Made by a program: the position numbers and the translations under genes. From Gammaproteobacteria bacterium (GTDB lineage: Bacteria; Pseudomonadota; Gammaproteobacteria; SZUA-140), in contig JACREF010000011.1 in assembly GCA_016218365.1 (NCBI GenBank), positions 197,094 through 261,093 of the forward strand: a stretch of DNA of 64,000 nucleotides, read 5' to 3'. Shown here piece by piece: positions 56,955-64,000 of the stretch. The notes below the pieces were generated by a model. It was not told where the DNA came from. It saw only the letters and a program-made list of their open reading frames with translations, and searched no databases. Each line of letters begins with the position of its first letter. The stretch's first letter is position 1.

Positions 56955-57055
56955 GGATGGTCTCCTGTTGATTTATAACGGCTTTGTTAAAACCGGTATC
57001 ACTGCGAAGTAATTTGATGTTAGAGAATCGCAGATTCATTCGTTCAAAATTACCA

Positions 57056-57160
57056 CGACCGTCATTCCCGCGAAAGCGGGAATCCATAATCAAGTTCCTG
57101 ATCTATTAAATATGGATTCCGGGTCGCAGCGCGGCTGCGCCCGGAATGACAGTAAGTGAC
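57056..57160. repeat. Family B repeats
   Basis: GTCATTCCCGCGAAAGCGGG and AATCCATAATC, then TATGGATTCCGGGTCGCAGC and CTGCGCCCGGAATGACAG: two palindromic units between the DUF1993 gene and MITE copy 2. The 385-base gap 56955-57339 contains these repeats and the MITE, no gene. Confidence 0.85.
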
Positions 57161-57182
57161 TCATTATCCACATCACTGTCTA

Positions 57183-57335
57183 GGGAAACTCTGATTAATT
57201 CAAAAATTACCACGGCCGTCATTCCCGCGAAAGCGGGAATCCAGATATTACAATTATTTATGGATGCCCGCTGCAGCCTGCCGTCGACCCGATCGGGGGC
57301 GGCATGACGACAATACGAATTAATCAGAGCCTCCC
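57183..57335. mobile_element. MITE copy 2, beside the topoisomerase IB stop codon
   Basis: A 153-base element with inverted ends GGGAAACTCTGATTAATTC and GAATTAATCAGAGCCTCCC, bracketed by TA (57181-57182, 57336-57337). The interior has ATTCCCGCGAAAGCGGGAAT and CTGCCGTCGACCCGATCGG hairpins. The end lies 4 bases from the topoisomerase IB stop. Same orientation as copy 3. Confidence 0.88.
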
Positions 57336-57339
57336 TAGG

Positions 57340-58425
57340 TCATTTCGGTGCAGATTGCACTTCAGGCACAGACTGCTGCAGGAATTGCAACACCGCGACC
57401 TCATCGCGCCTCAATGCAGCGGCAGGTCTGTCGCGCCGCATACCGCGTGGCTGCGACGCTGAGGGAACGGGCGCCGTCAGCCCCATGTGATAGGCCTCCA
57501 GCAGACCCGGGTGTACATAGTATTTGCGACACACGGTGCGGGTATTGCCGAGTCGCTCCGCCACCGCGTCCAGCGCGCGCACAATATTGCGGTCGGCCTC
57601 ACGCCGGCTGGTGGCAGGCCCTGCCACGTGCAAGGCCACGGCCGCCACCATGGTTCCGCCCCAGGTGCGAAAATCCTTGGCGGTGACCTCGCGCCCGCTG
57701 ATCTCGCGCAGATAGTCATTCACATCGTCCGAGCTGATCGGATGGCGTTTACCAAAGACGTCGAGGTACTGGAACAACTCCTGGCCCGGGATATCCTGGC
57801 AGCGCTGCACGATGCGGGCGATGCGCGGGTCGTTGAGCGATACCGAATGTTCGACGCCGCTCTTGCCACGAAAGCTGAAATGCAACTGCCCACCCTTAAC
57901 CTCGACATGCTTGCGGCGCAGCGTCGTCAGCCCATAGGAACGATTCTCGCGCGCGTATTCATCATTGCCGACGCGGATCAGCGTCTTGTCGAGCAGCCGC
58001 ACCACGGTGGCCAGGATCTGGCACCGCGTCAGTTCGCCGGCGCGCAGGTCGCGTTCGACACGCTCGCGCAGCCTGGGCAGGATCTCGCTGAACTCCAGCA
58101 TGCGGCGAAACTTCGATTGATCACGGGTGGCGCGGTATGACGGATGGTAGCGATACTGTTTGCGGCCGCGCGCATCCCGCGCCGTCACCTGGATATGGCC
58201 CTCGGGATCGGGGCAGATCCACACCTCCGACCAGGCCGGCGGGATCGCCAGTGCATTGATCCGTGCCCGCTCGGCCGGGTCGACGATGCGCGCGCCGGCC
58301 GCATCGTAAAAACTCCAGCCCTTGCCGGAGCGGCGACGCGTGATACCGGGGACGCCATCGGTCACATAGTGCAGACCGGCATGGTCTGCCGACCTGCGAT
58401 ATTCGTGGTGTTTCGAAGAACTCAC
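57340..58425 (-). CDS. DNA topoisomerase IB (poxvirus type)
   Basis: A 361-residue bacterial type IB topoisomerase that relaxes supercoils by nicking one strand. It has AGLHYVTDGVPGITRRRSGK (about 16-35), RYHPSYRATRDQSKFRRMLE (about 91-110), RVGNDEYARENRSYGLTTLR and KDFRTWGGTMVA, and the catalytic tyrosine lies in VCRKYYVHPG (about 309-318). GTG at 58425 is chosen as start because a duplicated copy of this 5' end (at 59427) preserves it. The gene is bracketed by two MITE copies in the same orientation (57183-57335, 58493-58646). Confidence 0.9.
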   Translation of the reverse strand: MSSSKHHEYRRSADHAGLHYVTDGVPGITRRRSGKGWSFYDAAGARIVDPAERARINALAIPPAWSEVWICPDPEGHIQVTARDARGRKQYRYHPSYRATRDQSKFRRMLEFSEILPRLRERVERDLRAGELTRCQILATVVRLLDKTLIRVGNDEYARENRSYGLTTLRRKHVEVKGGQLHFSFRGKSGVEHSVSLNDPRIARIVQRCQDIPGQELFQYLDVFGKRHPISSDDVNDYLREISGREVTAKDFRTWGGTMVAAVALHVAGPATSRREADRNIVRALDAVAERLGNTRTVCRKYYVHPGLLEAYHMGLTAPVPSASQPRGMRRDRPAAALRRDEVAVLQFLQQSVPEVQSAPK

Positions 58426-58492
58426 CGTGCGGCTTGCCTCATTAAAACGCCGTGTGCGCAGGGACAGCCCAGTCCGGCCCCGCAACCCGTTA

Positions 58493-58646
58493 AGGAAACA
58501 CTGATTAATTTGAAAATTACCACGGCCGTCACCCCCGCGAAAGCGGGAATCCAGGTATTACAGGCCTTTATGGATGCCCGCTGCAGCCTGCCCTCGACCC
58601 GATCGGGGGCGGGCATGACGACAATACGAATTAATCAGAGCCTCCT
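58493..58646. mobile_element. MITE copy 3, in the topoisomerase IB upstream region
   Basis: A 154-base element (AGGAAACACTGATTAATTT ... GAATTAATCAGAGCCTCCT) inserted after TA (58491-58492), with a mutated GA at the right flank (58647-58648). The uninterrupted target is preserved at 59521-59545 (GCAAGCCGTTAATTCTATCC), which proves the insertion and its TA target. The interior is the same as copy 2 with a few differences. Confidence 0.9.
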
Positions 58647-58762
58647 GAATTCTATCCGAAACCGGCATTGCCGGTATCCATTCAGCCTGCATTCAGCGTT
58701 GGAGGTTCAATCTTGTAGCTGAGGAAGGCGGTAAATCCTGGTTAATAAAAAAGGAGACAACC

Positions 58763-59284: not shown

Positions 59285-59425
59285 TTACTGCAGCGCCCTG
59301 GCCCTGAACGCCCGCCCCTTCAGCTTGCCCTTGTTCAGTTGCGTCAGCGCGCGTTGCAGCTGCGCGCGCTCGATCGCGACATAGGCCTGGCGGTCGAACA
59401 GGTCGATCTTGCCGACACTGCTGGC
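59285..59425 (-). pseudogene. dbpA 3'-end fragment, duplicated
   Basis: The minus strand encodes VGKIDLFDRQAYVAIERAQL, then QRALTQLNKGKLKGRAFRAR and ALQ-stop, nearly identical to the end of the DbpA helicase gene at the right window edge (63842-64000, ending FRARKL-stop). There is no upstream helicase body. At 59425-59427 it joins the topoisomerase IB 5' copy. Confidence 0.88.
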
Positions 59426-59426
59426 T

Positions 59427-59604
59427 GGCATGGTCCGTCGACGTGCGATACTCGTGGTGCTGCAAAGAACTCACCGTGCAATCTGCCTCATTTAAGCGCC
59501 TTGTGCGCAGGGATATCCAGTCCGACCCCGCAAGCCGTTAATTCTATCCGATACCGGCACGGCCGGAATCCATCCAGCCTGGATTCAGCTTCGGAGGTTT
59601 GCCA
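59427..59604. repeat. Duplicate of the topoisomerase IB 5' end and upstream region
   Basis: This segment matches 58378-58492 plus 58649-58712 (about 85 percent by eye). It includes the GTG start and first 17 codons of the topoisomerase (SSLQHHEYRTSTDHA here, SSSKHHEYRRSADHA there) and the sequence beyond. It lacks the MITE, so it represents the pre-insertion form. Confidence 0.85.
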
Positions 59605-59614
59605 TCGATCAAAT

Positions 59615-60718
59615 TTAACTCAGTTGTAAACCGAAGCCAAGTCGTTCTGCGATCCCTGTAGTATCAATATCTAGTCGGCCACCCACTCCAAACTTAAGTT
59701 CAGGGCTACACATGTCATAATCGAGCAGATAGGTGCCGAATGCACCCTCTTGAGCGAGTAAAATATCGCGTGTGGCATTGGCAAGAGTTAGCGCAGCACG
59801 CGTCAACAAACTGGTTTCGCCGACCTGTGCTCCGATGATGACTGGTAGTTGCCGCGTCCTACAGTCTTTGATGACATCCAAAGACCGTAGCAACCCACCC
59901 ATTTTCGACACCCGCAAGTTAACAATCCAGCGACTAGCATCGCTTGTGATGCTGTCTAGGTGTTCACGCCGGTTCACGCTCTCATCAAGAATGATCCTGG
60001 TATCACAAATCTCGGCAAGCTTAGACATTAAATCAAATTGGCCGACCTTAAAGGGCTCTTCAACGGCAAACAAAGGAGTATTAAGTTGTTCAAGATAGTC
60101 GCATGCCGATCCCAGATCGGACCAAAGATTATTGGCATCTACGCGTAATCGCTCGGCACCAGCTGTTCGTACCAGAGCAAGGTTAGCGCGGTCTGATTCT
60201 AAGTTTCCAGATAGCTTTAGTTTGAAATCCACAATTTTGAGCTTTTTGTATTGTGACAGAAGTACCGCGCATTTTTCTGCGCTGGTCACACCAATGACTG
60301 CAGTATAGATATATGGTCCATGCAAACGCGGCAGCCCGAGAAAGTCTTCGACTGGCTGGCCGACTGATTGCGCCATTAGATCAAGCAGCGCTAACTCAAT
60401 TGCACACCATGCGGCAGGATTTATCTCAATAACATCATGATGTTCAAGCATCCATTCTTTCAGCGAACCCAGATCACGCACAATCTCAAGCAAAGATTCC
60501 CGGTATTGCTCAATAAAAATCAATGCACTGCGCACCGATTCACCGGTTACATATTCTCGTGGACAACCTTCACCGTAGCCCACTAGACCATCAAATCCAC
60601 TTGCTGTCACCCATAACGCCGCAGCCTGGTCTCGGACAGCCGATGCATGACGAAAACTGTGCCGGAACGGGATCTCAAGAATCCGGCCATCAAGGCCGAT
60701 TAGTGGGCAGGTATGCAT
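59615..60718 (-). CDS. Enolase-superfamily protein (dipeptide epimerase / N-acylamino acid racemase type)
   Basis: A 367-residue member of the muconate-lactonising enzyme subgroup. The motif VDFKLKLSG supplies the KxK pair (K166, K168). Metal ligands are D194 (RVDANNLWS), E220 (AVEEPF) and D245 (ILDESVN). The position where dipeptide epimerases carry the second catalytic lysine (NIK-x-x-KxGG) reads NLRVSKMGG, so that lysine appears to be R269. Typical members epimerise Ala-Glu-like dipeptides or racemise N-acylamino acids; the substitution may mean altered or one-sided chemistry. It is the third gene of a minus-strand operon, 16 bases after the desaturase-GH3 fusion, and shares its A+T-richer composition. 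Confidence 0.85.
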   Translation of the reverse strand: MHTCPLIGLDGRILEIPFRHSFRHASAVRDQAAALWVTASGFDGLVGYGEGCPREYVTGESVRSALIFIEQYRESLLEIVRDLGSLKEWMLEHHDVIEINPAAWCAIELALLDLMAQSVGQPVEDFLGLPRLHGPYIYTAVIGVTSAEKCAVLLSQYKKLKIVDFKLKLSGNLESDRANLALVRTAGAERLRVDANNLWSDLGSACDYLEQLNTPLFAVEEPFKVGQFDLMSKLAEICDTRIILDESVNRREHLDSITSDASRWIVNLRVSKMGGLLRSLDVIKDCRTRQLPVIIGAQVGETSLLTRAALTLANATRDILLAQEGAFGTYLLDYDMCSPELKFGVGGRLDIDTTGIAERLGFGLQLS

Positions 60719-60734
60719 CGTGTTTTCGTCGTCA

Positions 60735-63302
60735 TCAGATCAGAAATGGTTCGAATGAAAAGTTAAACCGGTTTTTATATTGCAGTGTTACTGTCTTAAA
60801 CTGTCCCTCGCGTTGCCCGCTGGCAAGACAGTGATACTGGTATGCCTCGCCAGCACCTGATTTAAGCCAGTATAGTTGTAGCGGTGCCAGCCGACCACTG
60901 GCACGCTTTGCACCATATTCGATATTTATCTGTCCAAGCCGGATGTCGATCTGAGATTCGAGCAATGCACGCATTGACGCAGATGCCAAAGTTGGTTCGC
61001 CTTCGAGATATAGTCGGTAATGTGCGGCGTCTTCATCGGCGAGCGCCATGGTAAACACCGCGGCAAATCCTATTTCCTTCGCGGCCTCAGCTACCGCCTG
61101 CAGTAACTGGCTTTCATAAAGCTTCTCGCCAGTGATACTGGTCACGCCACGACCCTTTTGCAGAAAGCGAATCATCGGGGTTGCGTCAAAAAACCCATTG
61201 ACCCGCACGATGTCATTCATGAAATAACGATATAGTCCAGAACGGCTTGTGACGACAACATAATAGTCGACTCCATCCTGAAGCTCATGAAGAAGGTGAA
61301 AATTACGTTGCCCAGCCTCCCAATGTGCTGGCTCAATGAATTCAAAGAAATGCTGTTGCAAGGTCGGTACGCCGGCACCGCTGCGTGGTTCGACGGTAAT
61401 TGAACCATGCAGCTCACTGGCAAGGTAGCCAAGCTCCATGTACTTGGTCACTGCAGGCATGCGGCGCTTCAGTGCATCCAGCGCAATGCCACAACTGCCG
61501 CCGGTCCAGACTGCAAGCAGCCTTATTTCAGGCCAAATTTCGGCATAACTGACCTCCGATGTCGCAGAAAGTGCTCGCAATTTCGTTGCACGCTCCGGTG
61601 CAGCTCGGAAATGCGGTTCAAGCTGCAACACCATATCTGCAGCCAGTCCAGGTATACCGGCCAGCGTGCCGTGTTCGACGCAATCAGCAATCAAGTCCCG
61701 TGACTGGCTCAGAACCTCAAGCAAGCGCAAGAACGACGATGGATTTGCCCCAATCAGGTAGGTGATCTGCGGTTCGGCAACTGCAAAACACAGCATCACT
61801 TGATATTTAACCAAGGGCTCATGGATTTCATAAATAGCTGGTGGCAGGACGGTGCTGGCACGCATCAATCCCGGGCGATTGGCGTACAACTGGCCAGAGA
61901 CCGTACCATACGGCAACCCCGACGGGCGATAGCCTTCAACCGCAGCTCCAGAAATCACCAACAATTTACCGGTGAATGCCATCGGACAATAGCGATAATG
62001 CATATACGCCTGCAGCCGTTGTACACGGCGGTAATCGGCGATCGTTTCTTCAAGTATTGGCAGGAATTTTGGCTCACCAGTTGTCCCGCTGGTTACTGCA
62101 TACATGAACGGCGCCTCCCTGGTTAGCGCCGGAGTTTGCGTGGTTTCCTGCCGCAAGATGTATGGCCGCAAATCCTCATAGTCCTGTACCGGCAACGCAG
62201 CGATAAATCCGGCATAATCAGTGATACGCTCAAAACCATGATCAGCGCTAAAAGCAGTGTCAGAATTAGCATGCAGAATATCTTGCAACACATATAGTTG
62301 TGTAGCCTGTGGATTTCGAGTCGCACGTCTGAAACGCGAATATTCGACTGCAGCGACCCAGCGCATCACCAGCCAGGCTAGCCATCGACCAATAACTCGG
62401 CGCAGTCCTTGTAGCGGCACGTCACGATACAACACATCCGGTGTAAACGGCGCACGCAGCTGCTGCCAGAAATTCATTGGATAAGACCGGTTGATCAATC
62501 CGAGCTCAGCAACTACCCGGTCGCGCGGGTGAAAAAATGTTCCAAACAATAGGTCCCATAAAATAATGTTGTTCCCGTAATTGGTATTTGACTCCTTGAC
62601 CTTACGGGAATGATGCCAGCGGTGCAGCTCAGCACTACTGATAAGATAATTCAGCCAGCCAAAACGCAGCCGGATATTACAATGCTGGAAAAAGCCGTTC
62701 ACCGCGTAAAATACAAAATACAAGGTAACAACCTCGCCGGACACGCCCATGAGGATAAAAGGCAGGCTATCGAGCATGAACTGCAGCAACTTGTCAATCG
62801 GGTGGAAGCGCCCGACATTGAACCAATAAAGACGTTGTGGCGAATGGTGCACGGCATGAAACCGCCACAACAATTCTGTCTCATGCGCCGCGCGGTGCAG
62901 CCAGTAGCGAAAGAAATCGGCGACCAATACCATTAGCACCATCTGCCAACCGACTGGCCATTGGTGCGGCCATAAGGACCATAGTTCAGTAGTATGGGCC
63001 TGTGAGGTATCGAGTACTGCCAGGACAACAATAATTCCTAGCAGCTTTGGCAATACAATCTGCACCAGCACCATGAACAACGCATCAGTGCCAATATCGC
63101 GGTCAGCTGGCCACCATTCGGTACGCTCGGGCATTCGCCATTCCAGCAGGGTAACCAACACGCCGCCGATCACAACCGGCAAATAACCAGCAAGCCATAA
63201 CGGCTGTGCGGCCTGAAGCATCAGAAAATGCAACACAACGACCACGGCTATCGTTGCCGGATACACCAGCCACGGCAATGCGGAAGCGGCCAGAGACCTC
63301 AT
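60735..63302 (-). CDS. Fatty acid hydroxylase/sterol desaturase fused to a GH3-type acyl-amino acid synthetase
   Basis: An 855-residue two-domain membrane protein. Residues about 10-285 form a di-iron membrane hydroxylase of the sterol-desaturase type with hydrophobic segments and the three His clusters HRAAH (136-140), HAVHH (149-153) and HRWHH (227-231). Residues about 330-855 match the GH3 family of acyl-adenylating, amide-forming enzymes: ATP motif YAVTSGTTGEPKFLPI (401-416), a YMELGYLASE region (GH3 motif II) and GLYRYFMNDIVRV (motif III). GH3 enzymes join acyl acids to amino acids, as plant JAR1 does with jasmonate. Such a fusion would hydroxylate a lipid acid and conjugate it on one chain. 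The operon is visibly A+T-richer than its neighbours. Substrate unknown. Confidence 0.85.
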   Translation of the reverse strand: MRSLAASALPWLVYPATIAVVVVLHFLMLQAAQPLWLAGYLPVVIGGVLVTLLEWRMPERTEWWPADRDIGTDALFMVLVQIVLPKLLGIIVVLAVLDTSQAHTTELWSLWPHQWPVGWQMVLMVLVADFFRYWLHRAAHETELLWRFHAVHHSPQRLYWFNVGRFHPIDKLLQFMLDSLPFILMGVSGEVVTLYFVFYAVNGFFQHCNIRLRFGWLNYLISSAELHRWHHSRKVKESNTNYGNNIILWDLLFGTFFHPRDRVVAELGLINRSYPMNFWQQLRAPFTPDVLYRDVPLQGLRRVIGRWLAWLVMRWVAAVEYSRFRRATRNPQATQLYVLQDILHANSDTAFSADHGFERITDYAGFIAALPVQDYEDLRPYILRQETTQTPALTREAPFMYAVTSGTTGEPKFLPILEETIADYRRVQRLQAYMHYRYCPMAFTGKLLVISGAAVEGYRPSGLPYGTVSGQLYANRPGLMRASTVLPPAIYEIHEPLVKYQVMLCFAVAEPQITYLIGANPSSFLRLLEVLSQSRDLIADCVEHGTLAGIPGLAADMVLQLEPHFRAAPERATKLRALSATSEVSYAEIWPEIRLLAVWTGGSCGIALDALKRRMPAVTKYMELGYLASELHGSITVEPRSGAGVPTLQQHFFEFIEPAHWEAGQRNFHLLHELQDGVDYYVVVTSRSGLYRYFMNDIVRVNGFFDATPMIRFLQKGRGVTSITGEKLYESQLLQAVAEAAKEIGFAAVFTMALADEDAAHYRLYLEGEPTLASASMRALLESQIDIRLGQINIEYGAKRASGRLAPLQLYWLKSGAGEAYQYHCLASGQREGQFKTVTLQYKNRFNFSFEPFLI

Positions 63303-63312
63303 GACGCTATCC

Positions 63313-63747
63313 TCAAGGTTGCTGGTGGCAATGGTAATGACCGAGTGTCAGTACCATCCCGGACAGAACAAGGTGAAAAATTGCCGGGACCGGTTTAGCA
63401 AACCATGGATAATCGGCCAGCACGGTAACTCCCAATATCAGTCTGGCGAACATTATAACGAAGTAGAGAATGCCAAACATCCATAATATTTTTCCAAGGC
63501 GCCGTCTAGGGATCAGGCTGCCGGCATGTATCCTAAATGCCAATATGGTTACCAAAACGATAATCACCAGCTGGCTACTAAGTAGCACGGTGTACGGTAA
63601 ATCGCTACCCTGCCACGATTCGAGCAAGGGCAAAAAATCCACAGGAGAGGTAATCTGTATTAACTGACCAATCACGCGCAATGAAAACATCGCCAGCAGT
63701 ATGCTTAACAAAAAGGCATAACGACGTCTATCAGATCGGTGATACAT
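63313..63747 (-). CDS. Small four-helix membrane protein, first gene of the GH3 operon
   Basis: A 144-residue protein with four predicted transmembrane segments (about 9-29, 53-73, 82-104, 118-138). RRRLGKILWMFGILYFVIMF lies in the third. ATG at 63747 has GGTGGA upstream; a GTG four codons earlier is possible. No family is recognised. Its stop is 10 bases before the fusion gene start, so the three genes form one operon. It could help deliver substrate to, or export product of, the membrane enzyme. Confidence 0.75.
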   Translation of the reverse strand: MYHRSDRRRYAFLLSILLAMFSLRVIGQLIQITSPVDFLPLLESWQGSDLPYTVLLSSQLVIIVLVTILAFRIHAGSLIPRRRLGKILWMFGILYFVIMFARLILGVTVLADYPWFAKPVPAIFHLVLSGMVLTLGHYHCHQQP

Positions 63748-63841
63748 AAGTATTTCCACCAGATAAAAATAATGATCGATTTATCTCGTAATGATTAAGA
63801 GATCGAATAAACCGGAGCAGCCCCGCCACTGACCCCTCGCC

Positions 63842-64000
63842 TCAAAGCTTCCGCGCCCTGAACGCCCGCCCCTTCAGCTTGCCCTTGTTCAGTTGCGTCA
63901 GCGCCCGTTGCAGCTGCGCGCGCTCGATCGCGACATAGGCCTGGCGGTCGAACAGGTCGATCTTGCCGACACTGCTGGCGGCGATGCCGCCGTCGCCGGT
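63842..64000 (-). CDS. dbpA: DEAD-box RNA helicase DbpA, C-terminal end (partial)
   Basis: The gene enters from the right edge. Its last 52 codons read GDGGIAASSVGKIDLFDRQA, then YVAIERAQLQRALTQLNKGK and LKGRAFRARKL-stop. This is the DbpA RNA-binding domain that recognises hairpin 92 of 23S rRNA. A second copy of this end is at 59285-59425. Confidence 0.9.
   Translation of the reverse strand, partial: TGDGGIAASSVGKIDLFDRQAYVAIERAQLQRALTQLNKGKLKGRAFRARKL

Follow-up and report, generated by a model that had tools for sequence, protein, structure and literature searches.

The participation of GH3 enzymes in bacterial aminolipid synthesis was reported in 2025, in planctomycetes, and the products of most bacterial GH3 proteins are unknown (PMC12493201). 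The GH3 enzyme OlsH makes N-acyl ornithine, the precursor of ornithine lipid, from free fatty acid, ornithine, and ATP in vitro, and the ornithine-derived lipids of Singulisphaera are lost when OlsH is deleted (PMC12493201). The main text of that study mentions no hydroxylase, fusion, racemase, or enolase. In ornithine lipid, the ornithine moiety is hydroxylated by OlsE (PMC3972451). Within the enolase superfamily, the N-succinylamino acid racemases have two lysines that serve as bases (PMC8142540). No operon in which a GH3 enzyme is accompanied by an enolase or by a fatty acid hydroxylase is described in the literature searched, which covers subscription journals poorly, and nothing in it links Nitrospina or Nitrosomonas to such lipids. 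An operon of this kind, previously undescribed in that literature and assembled from known component families, is analysed here in a stretch of 64,000 nucleotides of gammaproteobacterial DNA, referred to as the window.

Organization of the Operon

The first-pass annotation described a three-gene operon in which a four-helix membrane protein gene is followed by a fatty acid hydroxylase-GH3 fusion and an enolase-superfamily gene. ORF calling found these three ORFs on the minus strand, with intergenic gaps of 10 bases (four-helix protein/fusion) and 16 bases (fusion/enolase), exactly as described. The AlphaFold model of the first protein supports four helices (pLDDT 88.7), and Pfam detected both MR_MLE_N and MR_MLE_C in the third. 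The following features were delimited:

63313..63747, minus strand: four-helix membrane protein, the operon's first gene, 144 aa from ATG
60735-63302, minus strand: hydroxylase-GH3 fusion, 855 aa (ORF and Pfam)
62400..63302, minus strand: OlsE-like integral-membrane di-iron hydroxylase domain, fusion residues 1-301 (PF04116, 2.8e-32)
62330..62430, minus strand: fusion junction, about residues 291-324, a continuous frame with no homopolymer
60735..62420, minus strand: GH3 acyl acid-amido synthetase domain, fusion residues 295-855 (PF03321, PF23571, PF23572)
59615..60718, minus strand: enolase-superfamily enzyme of the muconate-lactonizing subgroup, 367 aa (Pfam PF13378, PF02746)

A GTG at 63759 is an alternative start of the four-helix gene. 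No RNA families were found in the flanks of the operon. Further away, at 57340-58485 on the minus strand, lies an ORF that resembles DNA topoisomerase IB when judged by eye.

Catalytic Domains and the Four-Helix Protein

The N-terminal, middle, and C-terminal GH3 domains were found by Pfam above its cut-off at fusion residues 322-840 (2e-53, 9e-18, and 5e-13). All three nucleotide-binding motifs that had been noticed as adenylation motifs are intact in the window (TSGTTGEPK, ELGYLASE, and GLYRYFMND) and, with rare exceptions, across the 17 genomes described below. The GH3 fold is confirmed by profile search and by structure prediction. The best solved relative in the profile search is the plant GH3 6avh (5e-40), and the GH3 half of the AlphaFold model (pLDDT around 90) has plant GH3.5 as its best Foldseek match (5kod; E 3e-31, TM-score to target 0.79-0.82). 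The substrates of the solved GH3 relatives are jasmonate, auxin, and benzoates. OlsH is the only NCBIfam family matched by the operon GH3 domains, and all 13 match it; their scores of about 94-112 bits (99.1 bits in the window) are far below the equivalog cut-off of 620 bits, and membership in OlsH is thereby ruled out. OlsH is the nearest characterised relative of the domain. The role suggested for it, the linking of an acyl group with an amino acid, is judged likely. Among other bacterial GH3 genes, ORFs of 974 codons (L113), 759 codons (L011), and 742 codons (L050) have 200-460 extra N-terminal codons and may be further GH3 fusions with unidentified partners. A GH3 gene on a Streptomyces plasmid (L112 4938-6608) lies in a polyketide-type cluster with a P450, an aminotransferase, and an LLM oxidoreductase, where it can be read as a putative tailoring amide ligase of a natural-product pathway.

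The other half of the fusion is, as first described, a complete three-cluster di-iron membrane hydroxylase. FA_hydroxylase (PF04116) was found at fusion residues 121-255 (2.8e-32), and the clusters HRAAH, HAVHH, and HRWHH, which constitute the eight-histidine signature of this family, are intact in the window, with all cluster residues invariant in an alignment of 13 rows. OlsE is the top NCBIfam match of the operon hydroxylases in 13 of 13 scanned, with about 150-210 bits (209.6 bits in the window) against an equivalog cut-off of 475 bits. Rhizobial OlsE, used as a positive control, scores 517.8 bits and passes this cut-off, so the comparison is calibrated; membership of the operon proteins in OlsE proper is ruled out by their scores. 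Action on membrane lipids or sterols had been proposed for this domain. Its closest relative is OlsE, which acts on the headgroup of ornithine lipid, rather than any sterol enzyme. AlphaFold modelled this half poorly, most of it with a pLDDT of about 50-65, because the model was informed by only 13 sequences. In the fusion of genome G1155 (L125 5931-8540), the third cluster reads NRWHH, with Asn replacing the first His; the hydroxylase there is perhaps inactive, or the Asn is possibly a sequence error.

The enolase is the most unexpected partner in the operon. It matches PF13378 (MR_MLE_C, 2e-22) and PF02746 (MR_MLE_N, 6e-6), and it has the KxK motif, the D/E/D metal ligands, and the catalytic lysine after the fifth metal-bearing strand that characterise the muconate-lactonizing subgroup, whose substrates are carboxylates. 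These catalytic and metal-binding residues are in register with those of E. coli YcjG (L-Ala-D/L-Glu epimerase), and K166, K168, D194, E220, D245, and K272 are invariant in 13 of 13 sequences, including both lysine positions used by N-succinylamino acid racemases (n = 13). The best solved relatives are the dipeptide epimerases 3jva and 1jpm. Near the barrel end, the DxD motif of E. coli YcjG is replaced by E-G-A in all aligned members, in a stretch whose alignment was assessed by eye. Three NCBIfam models bear on the assignment. DgcA (N-acetyl-Glu racemase) matches all 13 enolases, with 84.3 bits for the window protein and a cut-off of 400; the cis-3-hydroxyproline dehydratase model also matches 13 of 13; and the best match of the window enolase is muconate cycloisomerase, with 91 bits. 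All scores are far below the cut-offs, which rules out membership in any NCBIfam enolase equivalog. Judged by these comparisons, epimerase, racemase, eliminase, and cycloisomerase are all candidate activities. Of the original proposal that the enolase epimerises or cyclises the conjugate, the subgroup is upheld; the missing DxD and the failure to reach any equivalog cut-off leave the reaction itself less certain.

The four-helix protein belongs to no Pfam or NCBIfam family, and Pfam gave stray hits only. Its orthologues are present in 14 of the 17 operon genomes, and R24, Q28, P40, W45, Q59, R102, W115, and H125 are invariant in the first ten aligned. The model places the helices at residues 4-33, 52-75, 82-108, and 119-141. 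No fold match in the PDB stands out (best Foldseek E 1.4), and the best VIA-align Z of 8.2, for a VKOR-like protein, is within the noise for helical bundles.

Conservation of the Operon across Genomes

The operon occurs in the same gene order in at least 17 genomes from three phyla, Pseudomonadota, Poribacteria, and Nitrospinota. Hydroxylase and GH3 are fused in 5 carriers and unfused, in adjacent genes, in the remaining 12; the two halves are not separate and unlinked in any of these genomes. The count is a lower bound, as the scan of a genome collection (GTDB contigs) used two peptide patterns only and yielded three loci, in one Poribacterium, one Nitrosomonas assembly, and one Nitrospinaceae genome. 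Unfused carriers were found by whole-genome searches in 2 of 85 Poribacteria, 6 of 77 Nitrospinota, three members of the genus Nitrosomonas, and the gammaproteobacterium G471. In G339, found in a search of the class, a GH3 protein 42% identical to that of the window is encoded between separate hydroxylase and enolase genes; this genome is placed in Nitrosomonas because G389, of the same genus, is the assembly of Nitrosomonas sp. Bin_38_1. The unfused order is (four-helix protein)-hydroxylase-GH3-enolase; the genes usually overlap and are otherwise separated by no more than 24 bases, and the four-helix gene is missing from the three Nitrosomonas genomes. Nitrifiers are among the carriers, and at least one such genome, from Nitrosomonas, consists of a single contig. 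Nitrospinota are nitrite-oxidising, and Nitrosomonas is ammonia-oxidising.

In trees that also include non-operon members of each family, the operon proteins form one group, with support of 96/98 for GH3, 99/99 for the enolase, and a weaker 86/51 for the hydroxylase. Both these trees and the alignments of invariant hydroxylase and enolase residues comprise the 13 operon proteins known before four further fusions were found. Since each of the three groups together, joint evolution of the partners seems likely.

Several neighbouring genes were observed beside the operon. An alpha/beta-hydrolase gene of the S15/CocE type (X-Pro dipeptidyl-peptidase family) adjoins it in both Poribacteria and in the gammaproteobacterium G940, at differing positions, which suggests an occasional fifth member:

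L055 10737-12560: S15/CocE-type hydrolase gene
L085 4186-6033: S15/CocE-type hydrolase gene
L122 8105-9886: S15/CocE-type hydrolase gene

OlsI, which serves as O-acyltransferase in the OlsH pathway, likewise belongs to the alpha/beta-hydrolases. In two Nitrospinota genomes, the operon is immediately followed by methyltransferase genes (L089 4643-5293 and L057 10749-11480) that resemble UbiE or lipid N-methyltransferases by eye.

Proposed Product and Alternative Readings

What follows on the substrates, the sequence of steps, the product, the enolase chemistry, and the part played by the four-helix protein is our inference. With a probability of roughly 0.5, the product of the operon is a modified N-acyl amino acid, i.e., an aminolipid or lipid-like amide, to which the GH3 enzyme, the hydroxylase, and the enolase would all contribute. 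The GH3 domain would adenylate a fatty acid at the expense of ATP and then, at the membrane, link the acid with an amino acid. The hydroxylase, in the window covalently attached to GH3, would place a hydroxyl on the amino-acid headgroup within the membrane, and the occurrence of a natural fusion suggests that hydroxylase and synthetase act side by side there. The enolase, through a carboxylate-bound metal ion and two lysines, would remove the proton at the alpha carbon of the N-acyl amino acid and put it back, and so change the stereochemistry of this compound by racemisation or epimerisation. The four-helix protein may assist the membrane enzyme as an accessory partner. The first-pass annotation had the acid hydroxylated first and conjugated afterwards. 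Conjugation is retained, but the order is not: since OlsE, rather than a sterol enzyme, is the closest relative of the hydroxylase, hydroxylation would most likely occur alongside or after conjugation, on the amino-acid part.

Some observations weigh against this reading. The matches to OlsE, OlsH, and the enolase families, on which the prediction draws, are far below equivalog cut-offs, the enolase lacks the DxD of the E. coli epimerase, and an OlsB/OlsF-type N-acyltransferase domain (PF13444) was also found in each of the five gammaproteobacterial carriers searched for it. This domain was found in none of eight Poribacteria and Nitrospinota carriers, so in these GH3 would not be redundant with OlsB/OlsF routes. 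The operon includes no dedicated O-acyltransferase of the OlsA, OlsI, or OlsF type; a two-chain aminolipid is therefore not evident. A more specific form of the proposal can be put forward only tentatively, with odds well short of even: the operon may specify an undescribed class of headgroup-hydroxylated, alpha-inverted N-acyl amino acids (lipids of D- or allo-amino acids) in Nitrospinota, Nitrosomonas, Poribacteria, and scattered gammaproteobacteria, having spread between these lineages by transfer of the whole operon. An enolase in apparent lipid synthesis would mean that stereochemical or elimination chemistry takes place on a lipid headgroup. The operon also gives one deep GH3 clade specific, conserved partners from which its product can be predicted, and it adds an uncharacterised membrane protein family.

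It is rather unlikely that the acyl part is an isoprenoid, aromatic, or polyketide acid that is hydroxylated as such and conjugated by GH3 to give a diffusible signal or surfactant. The diversity of acids accepted by GH3 enzymes, with jasmonate, auxin, and benzoates among the solved relatives, would allow this, as would the missing O-acyltransferase, and the Streptomyces GH3 gene beside a P450 and an aminotransferase offers a parallel in a polyketide cluster. However, the nearest relative of the hydroxylase, OlsE, acts on an aminolipid headgroup, and no acid-forming gene recurs beside the operons, whose flanks lack any recurring polyketide synthase, terpene cyclase, or aromatic pathway gene.

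A comparably small chance attaches to an enolase that eliminates water from the hydroxylated N-acyl amino acid, or cyclises it, to give a dehydroamino acid, lactone, or lactam. The hydroxylase is always in the operon, so a hydroxyl may be available; muconate cycloisomerase (91 bits) is the best NCBIfam match of the window enolase, the cis-3-hydroxyproline dehydratase model fits 13 of 13, and E-G-A stands in place of the DxD of the E. coli epimerase. The nearest solved relatives are nevertheless dipeptide epimerases, and the usual enolase elimination requires a hydroxyl beta to the carboxylate. If the hydroxyl were at C4, where an OlsE study cited in PMC12493201 places it in its title, it would not be beta.

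The degradation or recycling of N-acyl amino acids or dipeptides by the operon is very improbable. An S15/CocE-type hydrolase gene adjoins it in two Poribacteria and one gammaproteobacterial genome, and the enolase has cell-wall dipeptide epimerases among its relatives, but the hydrolase is adjacent in only 3 of 17 genomes. To our knowledge, every characterised case of GH3 enzymes and di-iron hydroxylases is biosynthetic.

Origin of the Fusion and of the Insert

In addition to the window, the fusion is present in four genomes, G940, G1037, G1042, and G1155, each from another gammaproteobacterial family, drawn from a sample of 398 Pseudomonadota and relatives of G471. Their GH3 domains lie in open frames of 862-889 codons, with the four-helix gene upstream and the enolase gene downstream in all four, and in G940 the hydrolase gene intervenes between operon genes. 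The linkers are similarly basic and helical, and an in-frame GTG (V295) at the junction in the window takes the position of the GH3 start codon in unfused genes. The reading of the fusion as one real frame has withstood a test for a frameshift, of which there was none. An assembly or sequencing artefact is next to impossible: a single indel could join the frames where hydroxylase and GH3 overlap by 4 bases, as in several unfused operons, but the junction has no homopolymer, four genomes of different families share the architecture and gene order, and all five lie on one side of a fully supported branch of the GH3 and enolase trees. A frameshift or assembly origin is thus ruled out by the four further genomes.

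The branch that separates the five fusions has support of 100/99 for GH3, 100/99 for the enolase, and 96/91 for the hydroxylase, a pattern that would fit one fusion event. The trees have no root, however, and a later split in the unfused lineages is also conceivable. We regard the fusion as a gammaproteobacterial derivative of a conserved unit of four genes, most copies of which keep hydroxylase and GH3 as separate, overlapping genes.

The operon was recently acquired by the window genome. Its higher A+T content, noticed at the outset, is confirmed by a G+C content of 50.4% compared with 59.3% for the window, and the third-position G+C values of the enolase (0.44) and the fusion (0.54) are the two lowest among 27 long ORFs (median 0.76). 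The rearrangement suspected around it proved to be a duplication of the 3' end of dbpA:

59301..59425, minus strand: duplicate of part of the dbpA 3' end that borders the insert on the left, 124 of 125 bases matching the right-hand copy
63855..63979, minus strand: 3' end of intact dbpA, right flank of the insert, stop codon at 63842-63844

The operon stands between these two copies of a 125-bp stretch, whose 99% identity indicates that the event that placed it was recent. The foreign composition and the duplication together support acquisition by transfer. The intact dbpA ORF runs past the window end (L002 5936-7363, minus strand, 475 aa). dbpA is present in several members of the same family, its orthologues in relatives being 57-61% identical, and no GH3 gene of the operon kind was found in the other searched members of the family. 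Between the dbpA copies there is neither an integrase nor a transposase. In the trees, the proteins of the window have long branches, so the immediate donor is unsampled. Carriage by a plasmid was rejected, as coverage of the fusion by PLSDB records does not exceed about 60% and enolase matches there are distant, and viral carriage was rejected because IMG/VR holds no relative. Families of short direct repeats lie next to the insert (window 57046-57338, 58370-58707, and 59419-59599); they include a 41-bp element with an inverted core (CGTCATTCCCGCGAAAGCGGGAATCCA) and a pair of 60-100 bp, and related sequence also occurs upstream of dbpA.

Comparison with Related Systems

The overall fold (TM-score about 0.8) and the adenylation motifs are shared with the plant GH3 enzymes JAR1, GH3.12, and GH3.15. 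Identity to these is about 20%, however, and the plant proteins form hormone conjugates and carry no fused membrane hydroxylase. Like AEE, DgcA, and NSAR, the operon enolase is of the muconate-lactonizing subgroup and conserves the KxK, D, E, D, and second lysine residues, but it forms a separate clade and has no DxD at the substrate-binding end of the barrel. The hydroxylase shares its family, FA_hydroxylase, and its His clusters with OlsE of Rhizobium and Agrobacterium (PMC3972451), with 33-38% identity to the rhizobial proteins over the domain; OlsE acts with OlsB and OlsA, whereas the operon hydroxylase is encoded beside GH3 or fused to it.

The system that comes closest is the OlsH-OlsG-OlsI operon of Singulisphaera acidiphila (PMC12493201), in which a GH3 enzyme with the same three nucleotide motifs is likewise placed beside lipid-modifying enzymes. 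As in OlsH, the reaction expected here would be the ATP-dependent formation of an N-acyl amino acid. In contrast to that operon, the GH3 proteins described here form a separate clade, and the OlsG methyltransferase and the OlsI acyltransferase are missing; an OlsE-like hydroxylase, an enolase, and the four-helix protein are present in their place.
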